This document shows positions 3,040-31,562 of a stretch of DNA of 32,044 nucleotides, one piece after another. Each line of letters starts with the position of its first letter. Position 1 is the first letter of the stretch. The DNA comes from Bacteroidota bacterium. GTDB taxonomy: Bacteria; Bacteroidota; Bacteroidia; AKYH767-A; 2013-40CM-41-45. The stretch covers positions 1-32,044 of the forward strand of contig PLYJ01000264.1 in assembly GCA_003151745.1 (NCBI GenBank), given 5' to 3'. The notes below the pieces were generated by a model that was not told the DNA's origin, did not search any database, and saw only the letters and a list, made by a program, of their open reading frames with translations. The position numbers and the translations under genes are program-made.

Positions 3040-4866
3040 TTATTCGTAGATAACCAATCTTTTATTAAAAATTTTATATCCGCTTGCCAGCCTGATAAAA
3101 TAAATGCCCGCAGAAAGCTGATCTGCTTTTACCTCAAAGTGAACCTGGTATTTGCCGGGAAGTTGATTGCTGTTTACCATGTTTTTTATCTTTTTTCCTA
3201 AAGCATCAAAAACTTCAAGCTTCACGTCCGCAACATTGACAAGTGTATAGCTGATCATCACTTGCTCCCTGCCAGGATTGGGCTGTATGTTGAATGAAAC
3301 TATTGACTCCAATGAATTATTGAATCCAACAGGAAGTATTTGCACTGTGTCTGCTGATACGGTTGGTCCGCAATGATTCCAAGCGTACAACCACACGATG
3401 TACGAACCCGACGAAGGAAACGAATGAGAGGCAATCGAAGTTGAAGTAGTTAATGATCCCGATCCATCATTCCATATCCATACTAAGGAATCAGCTGAGC
3501 TGGCATTGGCCGTGAACGATACATTATTTCCAGCCACATTGTATGTGAAGCCACCGGCTTCAAAGTTTCCTGGCGATTGTTGATAAAGTGTAACCGGTAC
3601 CGCTACCCAATTGTTTGTTTTGTCCTGTTCAAGGAAATGATTATCAGGATCGGTAATAGATACTATATAGTAATCTCCGTTGCAGGTACCCGCAGGAAGA
3701 ATAATTCCCGGTGCATTTTCCCCGGCATCATAGATGTCAATATTGGCGGGATAAATTCCCTGGTTGGTGCCGCAGCCGCTAATCGTGCCGAAATTTGCAT
3801 TAGGAATATCTTTGTTTTGTAAAACATGCCCTGCGCTATCTATACAATACCCATAATAAGAATCGCAATCACCAAGATTAATAAGGCAGAAACTTTCTTT
3901 AGTTCCTGAGCCGATGATGGGCCAGGTAGTCGCGTCAGGATTGGGAGTTGATCTTCGAAGAGTATAAGAAGACCAGTCATCTACATGCGTATGGCCATGA
4001 TCGCGATCATAAAACATTTTTCCGGCAGGGCGATCATAATATGTCATGATATTGCCGCTACGATGGTAAATACGCTGGTTTACCAATTGCTTGACAGGAG
4101 TGCTGTCAGGACACAATGTGTCAAGGCAGGAAATAGGAGTAGTACCGCAAAAGCAACTATCTATTCCATGAATCTCAAGCGGACCCCACCCGATGTTCGG
4201 TGTCGAGTTGCTAAACGTAAGTTGACCGGGTGATTCTTGATGATCTATGATGATTGCAAGAGCGGAGGCGGTCAGATCAGGAAGCAAATCGCAATCAGTA
4301 GAAACTCCATCTGGACATTTGCATCCTGAAGGATTTGCAACCGAACATCCCGTGAATATAGGATCAGGTGGCGGATTACTGCCAAATGTTATGTTGACAG
4401 AGTAAACTGATCCGGTATCCTTTGGCGTAAATAAATCAATCACAACTAAATTCCAATTACCATTTGGATTTAAACCTGTATTGAATGTATTGAGTGATTG
4501 TTCGGGATAATAAGAGCCGGTGAAAGGAGCGACTCCTTGAAATATCTATCCATTCGCTGCATTTTCCTGAAAGCAAGTATTTGCATAGGCTGTATCGCTT
4601 CCACCCTTTTGATCAGCAAGTATAATAATACTATCATTAGGAGCACGTAACCCTATTCGCAAATCAGCAATATGCTGATGTCTGATATCGAGACAAAGTG
4701 TTAGTAAGCCGAAAGAGGAACTTGTTACATTAACTAATCCGGAAACATTAACAGGCACATCCAATGTATCTCCATTGGCAGGTATGGCATACCGTGTGCT
4801 ATCGGTAAATGTTTGGGCAAATACTAACGATGGTAAAAGGAAAAAAAAAGTAAGAAGTCCCTTCAT
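3040..4866 (-). pseudogene. T9SS-secreted protein with P-domain, lysyl-oxidase-like domain, PKD-like domain and C-terminal sorting domain, interrupted by an in-frame TAG
   Basis: ORFs 4546..4866 and 3040..4443 share a frame; readthrough gives AANG*IFQGVAPFTGSYYPEQSLNTFNTGLNPNGNWNLVVIDLFTPKDTG. LOX-like MFYDRDHGHTHVDDWSSYTLRR; CTD FNIQPNPGREQVMISY. Confidence 0.75.
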
Positions 4867-5040: not shown

Positions 5041-5097
5041 TTATTCCAACGACCTTTGTTCTATTAAGAAATATATAAACCTGAAAACCAAATTAAA

Positions 5098-7355
5098 ATG
5101 AAAAAACAAATTCTCTCTTTCTCTCTTTCTCTCTTTCTCTCTTTCGCTCTTTCGCTCTCGTAGCGGCATTTTTAAAATTAGTATTCATCCCGCAATTTGC
5201 ATCAGGACAAAACACCCGCATCTGGGGTACTTACTACGGTGGTTACAACACGGACTCTGAACATGGCATAGCCTCCGATGAAGCTGGAAATGTGTATATG
5301 ACAGGGAGCACCCAAAGCCCCGGTTTGGCTTCGGGAGGATTTCAGGACACGTTAGGAGCGGGAAATATAAACAGCACGAGTGCATTCCTTGTAAAATTTG
5401 ATGCCAATGGGAATCGTCTTTGGGCTACTTATTACAGTGGGGAAATTGGTACTATAGCTTCTTCCGTAGCAACCGATGCATCAGGTAATGTATATATGGC
5501 CGGATTTACCTTCGATACCGCAGGCGTCGCCTCAGGTGGCTTTCAAAATACTTACGGTGGTAATGAAGATGCCTTCCTTGTAAAATTTGATGCCAATGGT
5601 AACCGCCTCTGGGCTACCTACTACGGTGGAGCGGGCCAGGAGGCTGCTAATAGTGTAACAATCGATGCTGTGGGAAATGTGTACCTGGCTGGACAGACCA
5701 ACAGTAGCGACAGCAACGTAATTGCCTCTTCAGGAGGGTTTCAGACTACTTATGGTGCAGGTATAATTTTTAATTCAAATGCCTTCCTTGTAAAATTTGA
5801 TGCCAATGGCAACCGCATTTGGGCTACTTATTACGGGGGAGCCGGGCGCACAGAAGCTATGAGCGTAGCAACCGATGCTACAGGAAATGTGTATATAGGA
5901 GGAACAACTATCAGCACCGACAGCATCGCCTCGGGAGGGTTTCAGGATACTTTAAGAGGAAATGCTGACGCCTTCCTTGTAAAATTTGATTCTAATGGCA
6001 ACCGTATTTGGGCTACTTACTATGGGGGAGTGGGTAGTGATGGCAGTAATTCCATAGCAACCGATGCTACAGGAAATGTGTATATAGGAGGAACAACTAC
6101 CAGCACCAACAGTATCGCCTCGGCGGGATTTCAGGATACTTTAAAGGGAAACAATGATGCCTTCCTTGTAAAATTTGATGGGGCCGGTAACCGCCTATGG
6201 GCTACTTATTACGGAGATAAAAATACCAATGGCTGGAGCGTAGGCACCGATGCTGTGGGAAATGTGTTTCTGGCGGGAACAACAAACACCTGTCCCAGTA
6301 CCAATATCGGCTGGAGAGGGTTTCAAGATTCTTGCATCTATTCTTATGGAGATGCCGAAGATTTGTTGGTGTTTCTGGTGAAGTTTGATACCAGCGGTAA
6401 CCGTCAATGTGCTACCTATTATGGACAAATCGAAAAAGGGCAAACAACAAGTCTTACTTTGGATAATGCACAAAATGTGTATTTGGCATCAAATACCGAG
6501 TGGGGCGATAGCTACGCTGACATTGCTTCTGGCGGCTTTCAAATGAATTATGCTGGTCCGTCAGGTGGTTATGATGCCTACCTTGTAAAGTTTTGCCCGT
6601 GCAGTAATTGCATTATTGCAGCTAATTTTCAATCAAGTGACTCGACCTTCTGCTCCAGTGAATGTATTAATTATACTGATCTTAGTATAAACGCCACTTC
6701 ATGGCAATGGAGCTTCCCCGGCGGCACTCCTTCGTCAAGCACAATTCAAAATCCCCAAGGTATATGTTATGATTCTGCAGGCACTTTTGATAGTAGGCTT
6801 ATCGCTTCCAATGGCACCGGCACTGATACGCTTACTTTTACCAATCATATCAAAGTATTTGCTTCTCCGCCAACGCCTGTAATAAGACAGCATCATGATT
6901 CGCTGTTTTGCACTACCGATCCGACATACACTTCTTATCAATGGTATGATAGTACAACACTTATTCCCGGCGCTACTGATACGTTCCTCGTTGTTACTCA
7001 CGGCGGCAATTACAATGTGGCTGTAACAAATGAGTTTGGCTGTAAGATTTCAGTAGGTATTACTATCGCCAATAACGTAGGCATCAATGAGTTTTCTACT
7101 AACAATTATATTTCTCTTTCTCCTAATCCTGCTTTCGATCAACTCACTATTCACATTTCCTACTCTCACATTAAAGGTACAGCAACTCTTTCTATAATAA
7201 ATCTGCTTGGGCAAGAAATGCTCTCTTGCTCCCTTCTCCTTGGGAGAGGGGTTGGGGGTGAGGCCATTTATGTTGGCAATCTTCCTTCCGGTATATATTT
7301 TGTTCAGGTTGCCGGAGAGAAAGAAAGATGGGCAGCGAAGTTTATTAAAGAATAG
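5098..7355 (+). CDS. Large T9SS-secreted SBBP beta-propeller-repeat protein with PKD-like and C-terminal sorting domains; ATG 5098 is out of frame with the body because of an octanucleotide tract
   Basis: Body frame is open from 5097 to 7355; repeats AFLVKFDANGNRLWATYYGG...TDATGNVYIGGTT; CTD ISLSPNPAFDQLTIHISYS; ATG 5098 runs into TAG at 5161. Confidence 0.75.
5113..5160 (+). repeat. Octanucleotide simple-sequence repeat (CTCTCTTT)x4 followed by CGCTCTTT and CGCTCTCG variants
   Basis: Direct reading of 5113-5160. Confidence 0.97.
7229..7264 (+). repeat. Dispersed hairpin repeat inside the T9SS CTD coding sequence
   Basis: CTCCCTTCTCCTTGGGAGAGGGGTTGGGGGTGAGGC; copy at 17249-17284. Confidence 0.85.
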
Positions 7356-7822: not shown

Positions 7823-7915
7823 CTTCTTCAATCAAATGTTCTTCATTCTTATATCAAAAACAATCCCGCACGTGCGGGACAGATTGAAGAGCATTAGAAC
7901 ATTCGATTGAAGAAG
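7823..7915. repeat. Nested inverted repeat enclosing a 16-bp perfect palindrome
   Basis: CTTCTTCAATCAAATGTTCTT / TAGAACATTCGATTGAAGAAG arms (19/21 match) around TCCCGCACGTGCGGGA at 7864-7879. Confidence 0.8.
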
Positions 7916-13411: not shown

Positions 13412-13570
13412 CTCGTTTTACTTATTATTACTACCTTGCAGCACTGTTTAAAGTAATAAGTTACTGAGTTATTTGCTCTTCGGAAAGAAACTCAACTTAA
13501 TGCGCTAACGCAATTAAACTGATCCCTTTATCAATTTATAATTCAAAATTTATAATTTATAATTTCCAAA

Positions 13571-30665: not shown

Positions 30666-30747
30666 GTTTAAAGTTCAAAGTTCAAAGTTCAAAGTTCAAA
30701 GTTCAAGGTTAGCGCAACTTTAAACTTTGAACTTTGAACTTTAAACC
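30666..30747. repeat. Intergenic heptamer array (GTTCAAA) folding as an inverted repeat
   Basis: GTTTAAAGTTCAAAGTTCAAAGTTCAAAGTTCAAAGTTCAAGGTT ... TTTAAACTTTGAACTTTGAACTTTAAACC. Confidence 0.9.
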
Positions 30748-31394: not shown

Positions 31395-31562
31395 AGGTGA
31401 ATGTTAAGCGCCAAAGGAAGTAAAAAGCAAGGAATAATTAAAAGGGAAAGAATAATTAAATAAGGAATAAGTAATAAAGCGCTAAATGTTCGTTTTGCTA
31501 TTTATTCATTATTCCTTATACGTTATTCCTTATTTGTTATCTTTGGAAAAGATTTTATACGT

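Follow-up and report, generated by a model that had tools for sequence, protein, structure and literature searches.

A gene for a surface-type cargo of the type IX secretion system (T9SS) in a Bacteroidota bacterium carries an octanucleotide array in its signal-peptide codons, and the array sets its reading frame. The gene lies in the window, by which we mean the whole 32,044-nt stretch of DNA that was analysed. The array is real, the gene is OFF as assembled, and it is plausibly phase-variable. That the allele was generated by slippage and is silenced through its frame is well supported, while the odds that it represents a maintained reversible switch are about even. Taken as a whole, the best explanation, to which we assign a probability of roughly 0.52, is a paralog with a slippage-set frame and reversible ON/OFF display; we infer that switching is reversible and ongoing, and likewise any benefit from it.

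The array comprises six 8-nt units, four copies of TTCTCTCT (A) followed by two of TTCGCTCT (B), and is flanked by ATGAAAAAACAAATT on one side and GCTCTCGTAGCG on the other (Table 1). It falls among the codons for the signal peptide of an SBBP beta-propeller with a T9SS sorting domain, whose gene we call the window gene. TRF returned 6.0 copies with a 97% match, including two one-mismatch units, and the perfect period-8 run (5111-5145; 35 nt, 4.4 copies) begins 13 nt past the A of the ATG. When the window was resampled 200 times at first order, the longest period-8 run reached 20 nt (mean 15.5). Selection on the protein cannot produce an 8-nt period in the DNA, which counts for slippage as its source.

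We verified on the sequence the ATG at 5098, the TAG at 5161, the body-frame stop at 5094 and the four perfect CTCTCTTT units at 5113-5144 that a preliminary description had reported. The frame of ATG 5098 encodes MKKQILSFSLSLFLSFALSLS and terminates after 21 residues, whereas the body frame stays open from 5160 to 7352 before reaching its stop codon. The same description had placed no start of the body frame before 5292, and none was found between 5094 and that position; 5292 itself is a GTG, however, and the first ATG is at 5298. An alternative start that would rescue the gene was rejected, since GTG 5292, the first usable one in this frame, falls 3' of the signal peptide. From the ATG, a conserved V codon (5160) is reached after 62 nt here but after 30 nt in most of the paralogs; the extra 32 nt equal 4 x 8. 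Frame is kept with 0, 3 or 6 extra units and lost with other counts, and the single version of the array in the assembly has four, leaving the gene out of frame; the earlier frame arithmetic, the OFF call and the return of the frame at defined copy numbers all held. The locus thus has a perfect tract of non-triplet units early in the coding sequence, a unit number that by frame arithmetic and in-frame paralogs toggles between full ORF and early termination, and an otherwise intact coding body (731 open codons, complete sorting domain), as in SSR contingency loci.

Table 1. Features of the window gene (positions in the window)
Feature	Position	Strand	Evidence or detail
Signal-peptide start frame	5098..5163	+	ATG 5098, TAG 5161-5163
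Octanucleotide array A4B2	5111..5158	+	TRF, decomposition, paralog comparison; 32 nt over tract-free consensus
Body frame: remaining signal-peptide part (VAAFLKLVFIPQFASGQ), SBBP propeller, PKD-like and T9SS sorting domains	5160..7355	+	
SBBP repeat region	5220..6596	+	Pfam SBBP E=4.2e-28, AlphaFold2 model, phmmer and Foldseek to CylK
PKD-like domain (residues 507-566)	6678..6857	+	Weak, under Pfam cut-off
248 nt identical to T9SS gene with Kelch-like body on contig C150 (L061)	6720..6967	+	
T9SS type A sorting domain (Por_Secre_tail)	7119..7352	+	TIGR04183, PF18962

The origin of the array could be traced through a large family in the same genome, which yielded 210 matches to the window gene and about 36 related genes, the window gene included, for secreted seven-bladed SBBP propellers. 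A homologous signal peptide, with the consensus MKKQLLTFAL-VATFLKLLFIPQFASAQ or MKKQLLTFAL-VATFLKLLFIPQFASAQN, was present at 35 other loci, backing the earlier proposal that the tract lies within a genuine signal peptide, and not one of these 35 contained the octamer array. Most paralogs have their ATG exactly 10 codons ahead of the conserved V/A, and an in-frame ATG was present at essentially all of them, the window gene being the sole exception among the loci checked. Relative to the paralog consensus, the window gene is longer by exactly four units (32 nt), and the ancestral stretch, TTCTCTCT TTCGCTCT C, is already a near-perfect two-unit seed. Judged by sequence comparison, a tract-free, in-frame signal peptide is the ancestral state. 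As both A and B units were multiplied, parsimony points to at least two separate slippage events (A1B1 to A4B2), the alternative being a point change between unit types. As a separate feature of the family, three paralogs (L047 at ~1070, L049 at ~1379 and L050 at ~1997) have the ATGAAAAAA start swapped for a palindromic GTGAAATCCCGC..GCGGGAAAA-like element, and this element may provide a new start; the window has palindromes of a similar kind near 7868 and 8810.

The identity of the protein as T9SS cargo, proposed beforehand, was confirmed by a sorting domain scoring above the curated cut-offs of both TIGR04183 (36.3 bits; cut-off 23) and PF18962 (34.3 bits; cut-off 27), by SBBP repeats and by a T9SS in the genome. 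PF06739 (SBBP) matched in six stretches, placing the body among the SBBP beta-propellers, and AlphaFold2 modelled 28 strands at residues 22-478 as seven four-stranded blades. The mean pLDDT of the model was 60, with 60-92 in most of the propeller blocks and an unreliable PKD region. The nearest solved relative of the body, by sequence as well as by fold, is CylK (PDB 7ron, 7fh6), likewise an SBBP-type beta-propeller. This relatedness tells nothing of function, and no common function is claimed. CylK is a cyanobacterial alkylating enzyme, unlike the T9SS propeller of the window gene, and is not known to carry a T9SS sorting domain. The genome encodes SprA (family PF14349, on contig C264, E=3.9e-156) and at least 150 T9SS sorting domains, so export of the window-gene protein through the T9SS is to be expected. 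The paralogs read from their Sec signal peptide straight into the body, but here the two are out of frame; the predicted mature peptide begins near QNTRIWGTYYGG. The upstream neighbour (3040-4443, minus strand) also bears PKD and sorting domains. Within the sorting domain of the window gene, a palindrome-like CTCCCTTCTCCTTGGGAGAGGGGTTGGGGGTGAGG insertion (SLLLGRGVGGEA; window 7227-7263) resembles a repetitive intergenic element.

The window gene shares ~70% identity with its full-length paralogs, against a complete match over 248 nt with the Kelch-like gene on C150. On the strength of this alignment, PKD/sorting modules have recently been shuffled between T9SS proteins, here between an SBBP and a Kelch-like gene. 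The open body together with the recent C-terminal exchange suggests that the window gene was functional until recently.

We propose that six units arose when strand slippage multiplied two near-identical 8-nt stretches (TTCTCTCT TTCGCTCT). An 8-nt unit does not divide into whole codons, so the frame downstream of ATG 5098 would depend on how many units have been added: with four, translation would end after 21 residues and yield no protein, and the gain or loss of units would regain the frame, giving stochastic ON/OFF display like that of the leader repeats of Neisseria Opa. The ON protein would be exported by Sec and then by the T9SS. That the product is a secreted cargo of surface type, encoded in a genome with a T9SS, counts in favour of this switch. 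Of the phase-variable surface protein put forward in the preliminary description, the tract, the frame and the OFF state stand, joined by evidence for more than one slippage step, whereas the maintained switch is what we infer from them. That only 1 of the 36 members carries the tract argues against a dedicated switch; an Opa-type family would have it in each or most members, and the opa repeat is indeed present in every family copy. About four perfect units are also short for a high-rate tract, which counts against the switch.

To place the array in its genomic context, we surveyed 1.85 Mb (40%) of the 4.6-Mb genome. Within this sample, neither a further array of octamers reaching 3.5 copies nor a second OFF locus like the window gene was found; other out-of-frame arrays near ATGs were set aside as most likely reflecting spurious upstream ATGs that precede the real starts. 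In the 1.85 Mb we counted 90 perfect arrays of a heptamer with a copy number of 2.5 or higher; in 1.60 Mb the count was 76, compared with 1 in a resample. AAAGTTC occurs three times in tandem at about eight places in the source genome and in 0 of 10 genomes of the family. The octamer was rejected as a class-wide element, since (TTCTCTCT)3 occurs in 2 of 395 genomes of the class and the second occurrence is intergenic. The window itself holds heptanucleotide arrays at 13527-13565, 30666-30710, 30716-30746 and 31502-31540. Elsewhere, such arrays lie in apparently conserved enzymes that by eye we take to be YggS-, UbiD-, DHODH- and oxidoreductase-like (L109 7280-7313, L171 15884-15910, L147 3387-3411 and L201 2701-2734), where they form in-frame peptide insertions such as KLQTSNFKLQTL, and in T9SS C-terminal sorting domains (QLPTPNSQLPTL, SKLQTSNFKLQT; L063 5522-5554, L042 7325-7352 and L064 1072-1098), where a slip would delete the sorting signal.

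Arrays this widespread, extending to apparent housekeeping enzymes and sorting domains, point to array formation as a general mutational habit, which makes chance inactivation within a redundant family credible and leaves the array alone as weak evidence for adaptive switching. The gene may accordingly be a young pseudogene, one redundant member silenced by a chance expansion and subject to occasional back-slippage with no maintained switch, a reading that we regard as a serious possibility though short of even odds. The uniqueness of the tract among 36 paralogs, the redundancy of the family and the tendency of the genome to form coding tandem arrays regardless of function all speak for it, as does the finding of a body frameshift with no assembly gap in at least one further paralog (C107, L040). 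It fits less well with a body that is still wholly open, with units having been gained at least twice instead of once, and with a location in the signal peptide, the classic contingency position. Breaks in the other paralogs were dropped as a sign of mass decay, since most coincide with runs of N or with the end of a contig.

Two further arrays bear on the switch reading. In L125 (15142-15170), AGAATGC x4.1, and in L163 (5523-5548), GCATTGT x3.7, encode the hydrophobic core of a signal peptide, and both are currently in frame; by eye, the products are presumably a lipoprotein-like peptide and an outer-membrane-like protein, respectively. As these heptamer arrays sit in signal peptides, a class of nascent switches is conceivable, though they are no proof of one. 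A wider reading, in which octamer-slippage phase variation of the window gene would join L125 and L163 as scattered SSR-controlled signal peptides, contingency loci born gene by gene in a lineage unusually prone to forming repeats, is rather unlikely in our estimate.

An error of assembly or consensus in the unit number, with the true gene in frame, is improbable: the draft is in 279 contigs with a contamination estimate of 6.82, and many paralogs are broken by runs of N, but the 48-nt array fits well inside one short read, is free of N and internal to its contig, and has its alignment anchored by variant units. More improbable still is an OFF copy kept as a sequence reservoir for recombination with expressed paralogs, in which gene conversion rather than slippage would matter, because the module exchange that the 248-nt identity with a different propeller indicates involves a C-terminal module common to expressed genes too, and nothing marks the window gene as a donor. 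Searches among relatives returned no same-genus genome among the 60 nearest genomes and distant homologs only at the contig level, and the 3' flank had no match among viral contigs.

The reversible switch that we favour has several counterparts among known systems. In Neisseria opa, the copy number of CTCTT repeats in the leader-peptide codons sets the frame (PMC3745409). Both cases combine a pyrimidine-rich, non-triplet repeat in signal-peptide codons with a surface-protein multigene family; opa has a 5-nt unit and encodes an outer-membrane barrel, as opposed to an 8-nt unit and a T9SS propeller, and its variation is demonstrated, whereas that of the window gene is putative. The 5' ends of Helicobacter pylori sabA/oipA contain repeats of the dinucleotide CT (PMC5371856), again a CT-rich 5' slippage tract with ON/OFF control of a surface-protein gene, but with a dinucleotide unit, unrelated proteins and variation documented across many strains. 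The neuO gene of E. coli K1 carries the heptamer AAGACTC within the 5' part of its coding sequence, in 3-53 copies across genomes (PMC13001214); it shares the long non-triplet unit and its frame is open at multiples of three units, but the heptamer belongs to a phage-borne acetyltransferase and lies outside any signal peptide. One octanucleotide SSR of Haemophilus influenzae ranges from 1 to 6 copies among strains (PMC2651432), showing that short tracts of octamers can change in length, although the examples given in that work are located either 5' of genes or in the gaps between them and not in a signal peptide. A limited keyword search of the open-access literature, which is no proof of absence, turned up no T9SS cargo switched by an SSR.

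If slippage at the window gene proves irreversible, it would be a tidy case of slippage inactivating a redundant gene. If it is reversible, T9SS bacteria would also have evolved the strategy of leader repeats known from Neisseria and Helicobacter. The 35 tract-free paralogs offer a rare before-and-after view of the birth of a tract from a two-unit seed.
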